The notes beneath the pieces are model-generated. The model searched no databases. It was not told where the DNA came from and saw only the letters and a list, made by a program, of their open reading frames with translations. From contig DXEF01000057.1 in NCBI GenBank assembly GCA_019115085.1, positions 1 through 51,661 of the forward strand: a stretch of 51,661 bases of DNA. The letters run 5' to 3'. Of the stretch, positions 26,878 to 31,113 are shown one piece after another. Within the stretch, counting starts at the first letter, position 1. Each line of letters opens with the position of its first letter. Source of the DNA: Candidatus Agathobaculum pullicola (GTDB lineage Bacteria > Bacillota > Clostridia > Oscillospirales > Butyricicoccaceae). The position numbers and the translations under genes are program-made.

Positions 26878-27300
26878 GTGCATGTAATGCTCTGTTTGGA
26901 TAACAAGGACGGGATGCTGTTCAATCATCGACGGCAGAGTCAGGACCGTATTCTGCGCAGCCATATCCTATCCTTATGCGGCGCGCGGGGATTATGGCTC
27001 AATGCGTATTCCGCCGGACAGTTTACGCAGGAGGAGCACGCCCGTCTGCGGGTTGATGATCGATTTCTCGCGCTGGCTGGGGAGGGAGACTATTGTTTTG
27101 TCGAAGATCGGCGGATAGAGCCGTTTTTGGACAAGATAGAGCATATCATTCTTTTCGGCTGGAACCGTGCCTACCCGGCGGACCGGTATTTTGACCGGAC
27201 GGTACTGCGTCAGGGCTGGATCTTGCGGGAAACGGACGAATTTGTCGGTTGCTCGCACGCAAAAATCACAAAGGAAGTTTACGAAAAATGCAAAAAATGA
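26878..27300 (+). CDS. Conserved-looking 140-residue protein, unknown
   Basis: Starts at GTG 26878, six bases after GGAGGTGA (an ATG at 26887 is the alternative). Soluble, no signal or membrane segment. The N-terminus (MHVMLCLDNKDGMLFNHRRQSQDR) vaguely recalls dihydrofolate-reductase-type starts, but no catalytic motif is visible. Similar short Clostridia proteins have, I recall, been labelled ribonuclease Z without a metallo-beta-lactamase motif; I do not adopt that. Its last 13 bases overlap the nuclease gene in another frame, so the two are made together. Confidence 0.7.
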   Translation: MHVMLCLDNKDGMLFNHRRQSQDRILRSHILSLCGARGLWLNAYSAGQFTQEEHARLRVDDRFLALAGEGDYCFVEDRRIEPFLDKIEHIILFGWNRAYPADRYFDRTVLRQGWILRETDEFVGCSHAKITKEVYEKCKK

Positions 27301-28154
27301 TGAGAAAAGTGTTGCCGGTGCTGCTGTGTATGCAGTTCTTGCTCTCCGGCTGCGCAATGCTGCGACCGCAGCAGGCCGTTTCGCTGGAGGATGTTCCGGC
27401 ATACAACGGCGAGCCGTATGTGGAGATAGACGGCAACGTGCCGGATTTTCCGGAGGAGGACAAGGCGCCGCAATCGTTTGAAAGCTACGCGCCGCTGGAC
27501 TTTTTGGGACGGTGCGGCACGGCCTATGCCTGCATTTCCACCGATCTGATGCCGACCGAGGAGCGCGGCTCGATTGGACAGGTCAAGCCATCCGGCTGGC
27601 AGACGGTCAAATATGATTTTGTGGACGGAAAGTATCTGTATAACCGCTGCCATTTGATTGGATATCAACTGACGGCGGAAAATGCGAATGAGGAGAATTT
27701 GATTACCGGCACGCGATATTTAAATGTAGAGGGTATGCTCCCGTTTGAAAATCTGGTGGCAGATTACATCAAAGAGACCGGAAACCATGTATTGTACCGT
27801 GTCACACCCATCTTTGAGGGAGATAACCTCGTGGCCTCCGGCGTGCAGATGGAGGCCCTTTCGGTGGAGGACGAGGGGGATGGTATTTGCTATAACGTAT
27901 ATTGCTATAATGTGCAGCCCGGTGTGCAGATTGATTATGCAACCGGAGAGAGCCGCGAGGCGGACGCCACGCAGACGGATGGGGCGCAAGAGACACAGGA
28001 ATATGTGCTGAACACCAGTTCCAAGAAAGTCCACCTGCCGGATTGTTCCAGTGTCGTAAGCATCGGAGAAAAGAATAAACAATATTATACCGGAAGCTAC
28101 GAGGATTTGCTGGAGCAGGGGTATTCCCTTTGCGGCAACTGCTTGGGGAAATAG
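27288..28154 (+). CDS. Lipoprotein DNA/RNA non-specific endonuclease
   Basis: 288 residues. Lipoprotein signal (MRKVLPVLLCMQFLLSGC, lipobox Cys near 21). The nuclease core (about 60-205) carries RCHLIGYQLTAENANEENLITGTRYLNVEGM, the DRGH/NUC1-like beta-beta-alpha-Me region with the catalytic His in CHLIG and the metal-binding Asn. The C-terminus (VHLPDCSSV...YSLCGNC) is a small Cys module found on other secreted clostridial nucleases. Probably degrades extracellular nucleic acid for nutrients or defence. Start 27288 behind AAGGAAG. Confidence 0.88.
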   Translation: MQKMMRKVLPVLLCMQFLLSGCAMLRPQQAVSLEDVPAYNGEPYVEIDGNVPDFPEEDKAPQSFESYAPLDFLGRCGTAYACISTDLMPTEERGSIGQVKPSGWQTVKYDFVDGKYLYNRCHLIGYQLTAENANEENLITGTRYLNVEGMLPFENLVADYIKETGNHVLYRVTPIFEGDNLVASGVQMEALSVEDEGDGICYNVYCYNVQPGVQIDYATGESREADATQTDGAQETQEYVLNTSSKKVHLPDCSSVVSIGEKNKQYYTGSYEDLLEQGYSLCGNCLGK

Positions 28155-28170: not shown

Positions 28171-28213
28171 AAAAAGCCGTTTCTCTGCGTCAAAGGCAGA
28201 GAAACGGCTTTTA
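28171..28213. terminator. Bidirectional terminator between convergent genes
   Basis: AAAAGCCGTTTCTCTGC and its complement form a perfect 17-bp stem with a short loop, A-run on one side and T-run on the other. Serves both the nuclease gene and the convergent CNNM-type gene. Confidence 0.92.
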
Positions 28214-28233: not shown

Positions 28234-29496
28234 TCAGGCAGTCGGTGTCTCACAGTTTTCGTGCTCAATGATTTTGATGAGCGTGACATGCCGGTCATCG
28301 GCATCCTGTACGACAAAATCCAGATTTTTATAGGTAAGCGTTTCCCCCTGCTTGGGGATATGCTCGAGCTGATCGATCATCCAGCCGTTGACCGTAGTAT
28401 AGGTATCCGCTGCCTCGTCATTCTCATAGCCGAAGTTGGTCAGCACATCCTCGAAATCAGCGGCGCCGCGCGCCAGATATTCATGGTTTCCGGTTTTCCA
28501 GCATTGCTCGACAACACGGTCGTGCTCGTCCCAGATTTCCCCGACCAGTTCCTCCAGCACATCCTCCAGTGTCACAATGCCCAGTGTGCCGCCATACTCA
28601 TCCGCCACCACGGCGATATGCGATTTGTTTTTTTGCAGCATTTTGAGCAGCTCACCGATTTTCATGGTTTTAGCAACGAAAATCGGGGGCTTGACAATCA
28701 CGTCAATCGAGCGGTTGGAGGGGGCGACTTCGTTATAGAAGTCCTTCTCATGAATGATGCCGACGATATTGTCGATAGAATCCCGATAAACCGGCAAGCG
28801 GGAAAAGCCGGTTTCCTTAAACAGCTTGGCAATGGTTTGATTATCCGTATTCTCCGAGATGCCGACGATATTAACGCGCGGGGTAAAGATTTCCACAACC
28901 TCCACGTCGCTAAATTCAATTGCGCTGCGGATGAGGTCGCCTTCCTGCTCGTCGATACCGCCTTCGCTTTCGGCTTCATCGACCATGGTCAGCAGTTCCT
29001 CTTCCGAGATTGAGGTATCCTCCGCGGTTTTGAAAACCAGAGAAAGCAGCTTTTTCCACTGGACAAACAGAAAGTTGATCGGCGTGAGAATATAGATAAG
29101 AACCTGAATGATCGGCGCGGATAAGCGGGCAAACAGCTCCGGCGATTCCTTTGCCAAGGTTTTCGGGGAAATCTCACCGAAAATCAGCACGACAACGGTA
29201 GTGACAATGGTGGAGAGGGATGGTCCGGTTTCTTCACCCGCCCAACGGATAAACAATACCGTTGCAACCGATGCGGACGCAATGTTGACGATATTGTTGC
29301 CGATGAGGATAGTGGACAGCAATTTATCGTACTGGTCGGCGAGCCGCAGCACCAATGCCGCCCGCTTGTCGCCCTTTTCGGCAAGGCTTTTGATGCGGAT
29401 ACGGTTGAGAGAGGAAAAAGCGGTCTCCGTAGAGGAGAAAAACGCGGACATAATAAGGCAGGCGATAATGATGATAATACCTACTGATGTGTTCAT
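28234..29496 (-). CDS. CNNM/CorC (HlyC/CorC) family transporter
   Basis: 420 residues. N-terminal DUF21/CNNM membrane domain (about 1-185, SAFFSSTETAFSSLNRIRIKSLAEKGDKRA with the conserved Glu in SSTETA), a CBS-domain pair (about 205-330; VYRDSIDNIVGIIHEKDF, VVADEYGGTLGIVTLEDVLEELVGEI), and a C-terminal CorC_HlyC domain (about 340-415). Relatives include MpfA of Staphylococcus and YhdP/YqhB of Bacillus, which export or tolerate Mg2+; CBS domains bind Mg-ATP. Old label: hemolysin. A 155-base leader with a short ORF precedes it. SD AAAGGA. Confidence 0.92.
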   Translation of the reverse strand: MNTSVGIIIIIACLIMSAFFSSTETAFSSLNRIRIKSLAEKGDKRAALVLRLADQYDKLLSTILIGNNIVNIASASVATVLFIRWAGEETGPSLSTIVTTVVVLIFGEISPKTLAKESPELFARLSAPIIQVLIYILTPINFLFVQWKKLLSLVFKTAEDTSISEEELLTMVDEAESEGGIDEQEGDLIRSAIEFSDVEVVEIFTPRVNIVGISENTDNQTIAKLFKETGFSRLPVYRDSIDNIVGIIHEKDFYNEVAPSNRSIDVIVKPPIFVAKTMKIGELLKMLQKNKSHIAVVADEYGGTLGIVTLEDVLEELVGEIWDEHDRVVEQCWKTGNHEYLARGAADFEDVLTNFGYENDEAADTYTTVNGWMIDQLEHIPKQGETLTYKNLDFVVQDADDRHVTLIKIIEHENCETPTA

Positions 29497-29543
29497 GTTA
29501 TGTTCCTTTCGAAGTGTTTTTTAAAGTGCAGTCGTTATCGGCG

Positions 29544-29606
29544 CTACTCCAAAAAAACTTCGATCGGACGAAACGGTAATCGGCCCGCAGGATCAGGGTC
29601 AGACAT
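29544..29606 (-). CDS. Leader peptide ORF, 20 codons, M-S-D-P-D-P start
   Basis: Upstream ORF in the leader of the CNNM-type gene: ATG at 29606-29604, TAG at 29546-29544. The peptide starts MSDPDPAGRLPFRP and ends EVFLE. It lies about 45 bases after the predicted transcription start; AAAGGTGG (29626-29619) is its only ribosome binding site, at a rather long 12-base spacing. The acidic-Pro repeat resembles E. coli MgtL (start MEPDPTPLPR), whose EPDP stretch destabilises ribosomes at low Mg2+. Function here is inferred from likeness and position only. Confidence 0.5.
   Translation of the reverse strand: MSDPDPAGRLPFRPIEVFLE
29551..29574 (-). terminator. Candidate attenuator inside the leader ORF
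   Basis: On the minus strand TTTCG-TCCGAT-CGAAG forms a weak 5-bp stem (29573-29558, one wobble) followed at once by seven Ts (29557-29551). The CGAAG plus T-run can instead pair with AAAAAACACTTCG (29522-29510), just before the main ribosome binding site. Two exclusive folds are therefore possible. The short stem makes termination uncertain. Confidence 0.35.
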
Positions 29607-29657
29607 AGAAACAGGATACCACCTTTCTTTGTAAATCATGACAAGTTAATGCTGTAT

Positions 29658-29686
29658 ATTATACAGAGTTTAATGTATTTCGTCAA
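29658..29686 (-). promoter_or_regulatory. Promoter of the CNNM-type gene
   Basis: Minus strand TTGACG (29686-29681), 17-base spacer, perfect TATAAT (29663-29658), about 160 bases upstream of the coding start. Confidence 0.7.
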
Positions 29687-29733: not shown

Positions 29734-31113
29734 TTATTTCAGCTTTTCGCTGTTGGCAAAGCGGAAAACGGTCATAAACAGGATTTTGATGTCCAGCAGA
29801 AACGTCCAGTTTTCAATGTAATACAGGTCGTGCTCAATGCGCCCCTGAATCGAGGTATCGCCGCGGAAACCGTTGACCTGCGCCCAGCCGGTAATGCCGG
29901 GACGCACTTGGTGCTTGACCATGTAAAGTGGGATTTCCTCCTTAAACTGATTGACAAAATAGGGGAGTTCGGGCCGTGGGCCGACCAGACTCATATCCCC
30001 TTTGAGCACATTAAAAAATTGCGGCAGCTCGTCGATGGAGAATTTGCGGATGAAAGAGCCGAATTTAGTCTTTCGGGGATCGATGTTGGTGCTCCAGCCG
30101 GTGGTTTGCTTGTCATTGACCCGCATGGAGCGGAATTTGTACATATAAAACGTCTTTTTGTTCAGTCCAACCCGTTCCTGCTTAAATAAAATAGGGCCGG
30201 GAGAGGATAGCTTGACGCCGACAACCGCAAACAGCATGAGCGGTGAAGTGACCAAAATGAGCAGCAGAGAACCGATGATGTCCATGCCGCGTTTGACAAA
30301 TGCGTTTCCGATATTATCCAGCGGGATGTGTCGGATATTGACCAGTGCGATTCCCCCGACCTCGTCGTACACCGGATGCGCAGGCATAAAACGACTGTAA
30401 AAAGGAATCAGGGAGACCTTGATGCCGTGCTTTTCACTGTTTGAAATGATACCCTGTAAATAGGAATATTCATCCGCCTCCAAAGCGATGACTACTTCAT
30501 CCGGATTAATCCGGTCGAGCACTTTGGAAAGGGCGTTGTAGTTGCCCAGATAGGAGATGCCGGGCAAGCAGTCATGCGGGGCAAGGTAGTGATCGATGGA
30601 AAAGCCCAACGTGCGGTCCTGACGGATTGCCTGATAGTAGGTGCGCGCCTGTTCGCCGCATCCGATGAGCAGCACATGCTTGAGGTTGTAGCCTTTTTCG
30701 CGGAGGGTGCGCAGGGTGCGCCGCAAAAACCAGCGCTTGACGGTGATAAACAGCGTGGCCAAAGCAAAAAAGATAAGCAGCGTCCAGCGAGAAAGGTGAA
30801 ACTCCTTGAAAACAAAGAAAAATGCCAGCATCAGTCCGAACAGGATGGCATTGCAGCGGAGCAGCAGACTGAATTCGGTTAAAAAGTTTTTGGAGCGGAA
30901 TGAATCATAGAGTCCCATCAAACTGTATAGGAACCACAGAAGAGGGATGATGCAAACGGTAGCATACAGGTAATAAGAAAGCGCAATATGGCCGGGTTCG
31001 CCCTGAAAAAGCACAAAGCGGATAAAATAGGCCAGCAGCATGCAGGGGAATAAAAGCAGCACATCGGTCAGCCCATTGATCTGGTTGAGCGTTTTTTGGT
31101 TTTCTTTGATCAC
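29734..31113 (-). CDS. Undecaprenyl-phosphate sugar phosphotransferase
   Basis: 459 residues. Polyprenyl-phosphate hexose-1-phosphate transferase of the WbaP/CpsE type: four N-terminal helices, a Rossmann-like middle domain (about 115-240, [16 protein letters not shown]), one helix (about 270-292) and a C-terminal catalytic Bac_transf domain with [33 protein letters not shown] and [12 protein letters not shown]. Adds the first sugar phosphate to undecaprenyl phosphate to start an exopolysaccharide or capsule repeat. GTG start at 31113 with GGGAGG 8 bases upstream. Divergent from a GT4 glycosyltransferase. Confidence 0.93.

Follow-up and report, generated by a model that had tools for sequence, protein, structure and literature searches.

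Short upstream ORFs that are translated before a Mg2+ transporter gene have been described in enterobacteria, and what we say of them is taken from parts of the cited papers. MgtL, the leader of mgtA in Escherichia coli and Salmonella, starts with an acidic-Pro run, EPDP (PMC11282234), and low Mg2+ makes ribosomes leave this run (PMC11282234, PMC11552253). The mgtA gene codes for an importer, it is controlled by Rho-dependent termination and ribosome drop-off turns it on. Ribosome destabilization (IRD) has been reported for consecutive negatively charged residues (PMC9718836), and acidic motifs that depend on EttA take effect in the first 30 residues (PMC11282234). In mgtQ, an 8 amino acid uORF before Salmonella mgtB, positions 2 and 5 are acidic and control is exerted on a hairpin which masks the Shine-Dalgarno (SD) sequence; destabilization at the acidic codons promotes the importer through alternative stems, and loss of uORF translation, including loss of the start codon, lowers mgtB (PMC8092293). 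Translation of corL, the uORF of corA, also shifts with Mg2+, but it belongs to an importer, its efficient translation represses, and it has few acidic or Pro residues (PMC11552253). On the efflux side, the enterobacterial genes corC and mgpA are induced when Mg2+ is high, the latter at neutral or alkaline pH. The authors of that study suggest an early IRD stretch in CorC (YbeX) itself, and a possible role of YoaL for MgpA (PMC12421838).

We have analyzed a stretch of 51,661 nucleotides from Candidatus Agathobaculum pullicola, which we call the window. Its minus strand contains a short leader ORF with an acidic-Pro start before a gene for a CNNM/CorC-type transporter. This is the same arrangement as in MgtL, and the two leaders have been compared over the acidic-Pro run only. 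Unlike mgtA, the gene belongs to an exporter family, drop-off is predicted to turn it off, and the place of Rho-dependent termination would be taken, in the leaders at large, by a terminator-like hairpin, an SD mask or stop-start coupling. MgtL proper is a leader of mgtA, the downstream gene in the window is a CNNM gene, and the Clostridia leaders are not filed as members of MgtL: MgtL and mgtQ are the systems nearest to them in their working. In the case of mgtQ, the difference is again that completion of the leader is predicted here to promote an exporter. In CorC the IRD stretch is part of the coding region of the gene itself and YoaL overlaps the region upstream of mgpA (PMC12421838), whereas the Clostridia leaders are separate ORFs before CNNM genes. 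Among the matches listed in a search of open-licence PubMed Central papers, none reports acidic leader ORFs before Clostridia CNNM genes. None of the eight uORF candidates of a 50-genome survey is named as an acidic CNNM leader in the parts of that paper used here (PMC11109978).

We consider it fairly probable that Mg2+ is sensed through destabilization of the ribosome at the acidic run and that the exporter is on when Mg2+ is ample, the mirror image of MgtL. Since export of the MpfA type and the low-Mg2+ drop-off of MgtL are taken together, this is the simplest reading. Nevertheless, the sign proposed here is not certain: in mgtQ, where an acidic uORF likewise controls an SD mask, it is the opposite one.

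The leader ORF and its transporter in the window and the genus

The features of the locus are collected in Table 1. The leader ORF reads ATG TCT GAC CCT GAT CCT ... GAG TAG and ends 47 nt before the CNNM/CorC gene, whose ATG is at 29496 and whose SD sequence, AAAGGA, covers 29509-29504. A first-pass annotation had claimed a 20-residue leader peptide starting with MSDPDP and an SD spacing of 12 bases. The ORF is found at 29606-29544 and kept in all nine close orthologs, and the 12-base spacer, a point against the proposed mechanism, can be read directly from the sequence; an AAAGG is also seen, by eye, on the 5' side of the leader in the other members of the genus. Comparison of these sequences confirms that the leader ORF is real. 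A longer reading of 31 amino acids from an upstream in-frame ATG has been rejected: this ATG is absent in L003 and L004, and in L007 the in-frame ATG lies elsewhere, at -167, so these three do not share a longer form of the leader.

Table 1. Features of the leader and of the CNNM gene in the window
Feature	Positions	Strand	Basis
Promoter-like site of sigma-70 type, TTGACG-17-TATAAT	29658..29686	-	11/12 matches; kept in 9/9 genus leaders
SD-like sequence of the leader ORF, AAAGGTGG	29619..29626	-	12-base spacer to ATG; read from sequence
Leader ORF, MSDPDPAGRLPFRPIEVFLE	29544..29606	-	ORF reading; 9/9 close orthologs; codons 2-8 synonymous-only
Acidic-Pro run Asp-Pro-Asp-Pro, codons 3-6	29589..29600	-	Invariant in 9/9 despite codon variation
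5' arm of the putative SD-masking helix, TCCGATCGAAGT, within the leader ORF	29557..29568	-	Predicted fold and genus consensus
3' arm of the putative helix, ACTTCGAAAGGA, takes in the CNNM SD sequence AAAGGA	29504..29515	-	Predicted fold and genus consensus
CNNM/CorC-type transporter, 420 aa, predicted Mg2+ exporter	28234..29496	-	Domains and match to CorB structure

The transporter has the domains of the CNNM/CorC family (CNNM, two CBS stretches and CorC_HlyC), and its best match among solved chains is archaeal CorB, 7m1t (E 1.9e-61). Export of Mg2+ by this protein is predicted from MpfA, a member of the CNNM family which is required for Mg2+ export (PMC6711546, in part). No MgtE match is found in the genome to which the window belongs (82% complete), MgtE being found in 31 of the 59 genomes of the order that were searched. 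Between the CNNM gene and a convergent endonuclease gene (27249-28154, plus strand) there is an inverted repeat with A and T tails, 28171-28212, which by eye resembles a bidirectional terminator serving both genes. The next gene upstream has the orientation of the CNNM gene (29734-31113) and codes for a sugar transferase, with the domains Bac_transf and CoA_binding_3; we would guess that it stands at the edge of a polysaccharide cluster.

A close ortholog of the CNNM protein (74-100% identity) is found in nine of the 25 genomes of the genus Agathobaculum, and five more have only distant CNNM proteins. The pattern ATGTCNGAYCCNGAYCCNGCN is present, in one copy, in exactly these nine genomes and in none of the other 16; the reversed pattern, used as a control, has no match in any of the 25. 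In each of the nine, it opens an ORF of 19 or 20 codons which starts 103-115 bases before the CNNM gene. The first eight residues, MSDPDPAG, are identical in all nine. Codons 4 to 8 each vary, and all the changes are synonymous; there is no such restraint in the central part of the peptide. Taking 0.27 as the probability that a random substitution at these codons is synonymous, the chance of finding only synonymous changes at five codons is 0.27^5 = 0.0014, a figure in which shared descent is not corrected for. Such variation is what a translated peptide would show, and the leader is probably translated. By analogy with MgtL, we propose that the Asp-Pro-Asp-Pro run is a sensor which destabilizes the ribosome.

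Acidic leaders before CNNM genes across Clostridia

In order to cover other CNNM genes, we have surveyed 220 loci: the 79 nearest named CNNM loci, and 30 plus 111 loci of the order, among the matches listed in 295 genomes. One locus of the same genus, L031, was excluded from the 80 best-listed named loci, and L282-L290 are outside the survey. A leader was counted when an ORF of 7-65 codons, preceded by an SD-like tetramer 5-18 bases upstream, started in the last 350 bases and its residues 2-8 contained either at least two acids and at least four residues that are acid or Pro, or else at least three acids and no Lys or Arg. An ORF of this kind precedes 71 of the 220 CNNM genes. Dinucleotide shuffling (30 rounds) gives means of 1.9 and 2.0 for the two halves of the criterion, with maxima of 5 and 6, and the reverse complements of the 220 leaders give 1 and 0. 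Since the criterion was framed after seeing examples, these controls, rather than the cut-off, bear the argument. Removal of seven near-identical leaders leaves 68 of 213 (34 of 79 named, 34 of 134 in the order), and the other 145 fail the criterion. A caveat to these counts is that the leaders are related by descent. Looser inspection adds plausible leaders, for example MDAGDSTPDPERNN and MDSCSSCDDGDPNN.

The association is with CNNM genes. In the same order, none of 30 TrkH leaders (cut from the domain match) and none of 30 MgtE leaders (cut from the inferred start codon) satisfies the criterion (Fisher 4e-9 against CNNM). The scoring leaders start with ATG (45), GTG (16) or TTG (11), never with CTG, and four of the 11 TTG leaders are false starts upstream of ORFs already counted under ATG. 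When the other 58 codons are used as pseudo-starts, the mean is 3.4 leaders and the maximum 18 (GAC), many of which sit inside the same ORFs. In a class-wide sample of 69 CNNM leaders, after dropping L381 as a duplicate place, 16 match, where shuffles give a mean of 1.1 and a maximum of 4 and reverse complements give 0; two of the 16, L380 and L413, seem by eye to be chance matches. The leaders of L410 and L425, in this sample, begin with MSDSSDSDSEPPSPQ and MEDSSVSDIEPPS; they have an acidic run, an EPPS element and, towards the end, a hydrophobic stretch.

The M-box (ykoK) riboswitch is also a Mg2+-responsive leader RNA; unlike the leaders described here, it is an aptamer RNA. In the window, no Rfam covariance model, the M-box included, reaches its threshold. 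In 20 leader-bearing sources the sole gathering match is a NiCo riboswitch and no M-box is found; weak matches (E up to 1) in 11 sources are all outside the leaders. The NiCo riboswitch (RF02683, 77 bits) covers L072:4-93, the most upstream part of a CNNM locus from a Clostridium sp., and is far from the leader.

What these leaders have in common is chemistry, not sequence. Examples of their N-termini are MSDPDPAG, MDEPP, MDDADSDAD, MDSDDGDY, MDGDSCDPDANTC, MDDVPL and MDDSPSP. The frequency of Asp or Glu is 0.87 at residue 2, 0.65 at residue 3, 0.47 at residue 7 and 0.02-0.14 at residues 11-26: the enrichment in residues 2-8 follows from the selection, the drop beyond residue 8 is not built in. 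The 15 non-redundant MDEPP leaders encode these five residues with ten different codon combinations. An acidic or acidic-Pro run at the N-terminus, as would be expected of IRD leaders, is found in the nine DPDP leaders of the genus and in 68 of 213 CNNM leaders. The first-pass annotation had asked for a conserved acidic-Pro ORF in relatives: it is present throughout the nine orthologs and, with differing acidic/Pro N-termini, before CNNM genes across Clostridia. Exact N-termini appear to be bound to lineages, as two class-wide peptide patterns found at 2 and 5 places in 291 genomes recover a short ORF before a CNNM gene in L355 only. The MDEPP pattern by itself occurs mostly by chance in the order (at least 108 of 295 genomes), and it was rejected as a marker: in 30 loci that were read, only L131 and L137 lie before listed CNNM places, and nine MDEPP places precede CNNM when both sets of places are compared by eye, among the matches listed.

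This chemistry bears on the nature of the signal. The same output, with the gene on when the leader is translated, could respond to something other than Mg2+: slow decoding of Pro and Asp would report EF-P, ABC-F, the state of translation or the supply of aminoacyl-tRNA. In fact, YfmR relieves Asp-Pro stalling in B. subtilis and the translation of polyacidic stretches is difficult (PMC11381351), and control of a Mg2+ operon by charged tRNA(Pro) exists in mgtP (PMC8092293), as described in parts of both papers. Proline, on the other hand, is missing from the run in many leaders, such as MDDADSDAD and MDSDDGDY, and it is CNNM genes, rather than TrkH or MgtE, that the leaders accompany. No single tRNA is common to all leaders, since their Asp, Glu, Pro, Ser and Gly vary; an amino acid attenuator of the trpL type was rejected, the leaders having a mixture of these residues before a transporter gene. 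Overall, we regard a signal other than Mg2+ as rather unlikely.

Output designs and the putative SD mask

Three kinds of output are seen repeatedly. The ORF may run up to a terminator-like hairpin, it may contain the 5' arm of a hairpin that masks the SD sequence, which is the type of the window, or it may be joined to the CNNM gene by stop-start coupling. Each of them fits the rule that a completed leader turns the exporter on. A hairpin was counted as terminator-like if its energy was -13 kcal/mol or lower and a T-rich tail followed; reads beginning with MNMD or MCEE, which are false starts, were left out. In 54 of the 68 leaders such a hairpin is present on the 3' side of the ORF start. The ORF stops inside the hairpin in 27 of them, past it in 20, no more than 12 bases before it in five and earlier in two. 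Therefore 52 of 54 ORFs reach or abut the hairpin; for the two alternative frames the figure is 47 of 108 (Fisher 3e-12). The median distance from the end of the acidic run to the 5' arm is 30 bases, and 14 of the 20 ORFs that run past the hairpin stop 21-32 bases beyond it. The presence of a hairpin does not by itself set these leaders apart: within the final 350 bases one occurs in 58 of 68 leaders with an acidic ORF and in 88 of 145 without, some of them belonging to the upstream gene. L108 has no hairpin in the main count, it is present in a laxer scan. Several ORFs (L154, L164, L172, L174, L209 and L268) read through the T-tract of the terminator, which gives them look-alike ends (AFLCFKR and similar).

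Among the 14 leaders without a downstream terminator-like hairpin, L051, L056, L080 and L195 show stop-start coupling: the leader ends at the CNNM start, and the CNNM SD sequence lies within the leader ORF. By eye, the end of the ORF or the bases flanking its stop fold against or beside the CNNM SD sequence in L223, L259 and L274, and the same is seen at the ORF end or stop region of L065, which fails the SD test.

Genome comparison thus establishes, at the level of sequence, a conserved ORF with an acidic/Pro N-terminus, its association with CNNM genes and its reach to the hairpin. The mechanism that we propose starts from a translated sensor peptide. The ribosome would meet the acidic/Pro run with a nascent chain of 2-9 residues. 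With ample cytosolic Mg2+ it would pass the run, finish the ORF and, as the 5' arm of a repressive hairpin is within or next to the 3' part of the ORF, disrupt that hairpin. In the window, completion of the leader would free the SD sequence of the CNNM gene; in most leader-bearing relatives it would prevent a terminator, and in a few it would bring the ribosome directly to the CNNM start. With low Mg2+ the ribosome would abort at the acidic run, the hairpin would stand and the exporter would be off. We infer translation, drop-off, Mg2+ as the signal, the sign of the response and the export function.

The geometry suggests a sign opposite to that of MgtL, where drop-off turns the gene on. In the opposite case, drop-off or pausing at the acidic run would activate the gene, as in mgtL-mgtA and mgtQ-mgtB. 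This is the sign of the experimentally studied acidic-residue cases considered here, mgtL (PMC11282234) and mgtQ (PMC8092293). The target of mgtQ is an SD mask, which would also be the target in the window. But with the 5' arm of the repressive hairpin in or beside the ORF, ribosomes which never arrive leave the hairpin intact, which counts against this sign, and in the four coupled leaders drop-off has no evident route to activation of the gene. CNNM members such as MpfA export Mg2+ (PMC6711546), and a start-to-stop change in YoaL lowers MgpA (PMC12421838). Activation by drop-off therefore seems unlikely to us.

The logic of a gene on when its leader is translated, put forward in the first-pass annotation, is retained: the ORF is conserved in relatives and the geometry fits. 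The terminator on which it had relied in the window, a hairpin with a T7 run inside the ORF, has been abandoned. The T7 run is found in only three of the nine genus leaders (L001, L002 and L006), in the predicted fold of the window it is paired within a long stem, and the terminator scan gives no match there. Attenuation suits the relatives, whose leader ORFs reach terminator-like hairpins, better than the window. The conserved element in the window is a weak SD-masking helix, so control there would be translational. The proposed pairing of the ORF with bases just before the main SD sequence has survived in part: the CGAAG of the ORF pairs in the genus consensus helix, but this consensus is weak, with 11 pairs, nine of which join ORF codons to the SD region, and -2.9 kcal/mol. 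Two of its pairs are changed on both sides, C-G to U-A and G-C to A-U, as one difference between two clades.

In predicted folds, SD masking is clear in L007-L009 only, where the SD sequence is unpaired with a probability of 0.05-0.06, compared with about 0.35 in spacer shuffles (1-3 of 60 shuffles as low). The other six leaders cannot be told from chance: the values are 0.17 in L003 and L005 (11 and 12 of 60 shuffles as low) and 0.37-0.51 in L001, L002, L004 and L006 (12-40 of 60). The window's own sequence is included here, with 0.37 compared with 0.42 in shuffles, 21 of 60 as low. In the model, a ribosome at the stop codon overlaps with no more than a minor portion of the 5' arm. It further opens the SD sequence in L001, L004 and L006-L009, leaves it unchanged in L003 and L005 and closes it somewhat in L002, the opening being modest in size. 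Unmasking in these models would depend on ribosomes in transit. SD masking is the weakest link of the proposed mechanism for the window itself.

For the genus of the window, the leader might then be merely a translational coupler or a relic which senses nothing. This would agree with the six leaders, out of nine, whose masking does not exceed that of the shuffles, and with the helix pairs, only two of which covary, as one clade difference. Against such a leader stands a DPDP run which is invariant under synonymous change, in orthologs down to 74% identity, in a peptide with a variable middle, and we find a leader of this kind quite improbable. Least probable of all is an RNA element, a riboswitch or a protein site, which by chance is open in one frame: riboswitches are frequent on metal transporter genes and short nucleotide strings such as GACAGT are common to some leaders (by eye), but no Rfam match is found in the window or in the leaders examined, third positions vary and CTG never replaces the start.

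Ribosome stability as a possible gauge of Mg2+ in Clostridia

Taking the leaders together, we lean towards a general scheme in which the Clostridia have chemically conserved, ribosome-destabilizing leaders, conserved in chemistry and not in sequence, as sensors of cytosolic Mg2+ that serve Mg2+ export. They would feed three interchangeable outputs, all of them on if the ribosome survives, and they would be a mirror image of MgtL which has arisen or diversified repeatedly in Gram-positives. If this is true, the stability of the ribosome itself gauges Mg2+ outside the enterobacteria, with a sign opposite to that of MgtL. The natural acidic leaders would then also be a ready set for testing which sequences dislodge ribosomes.
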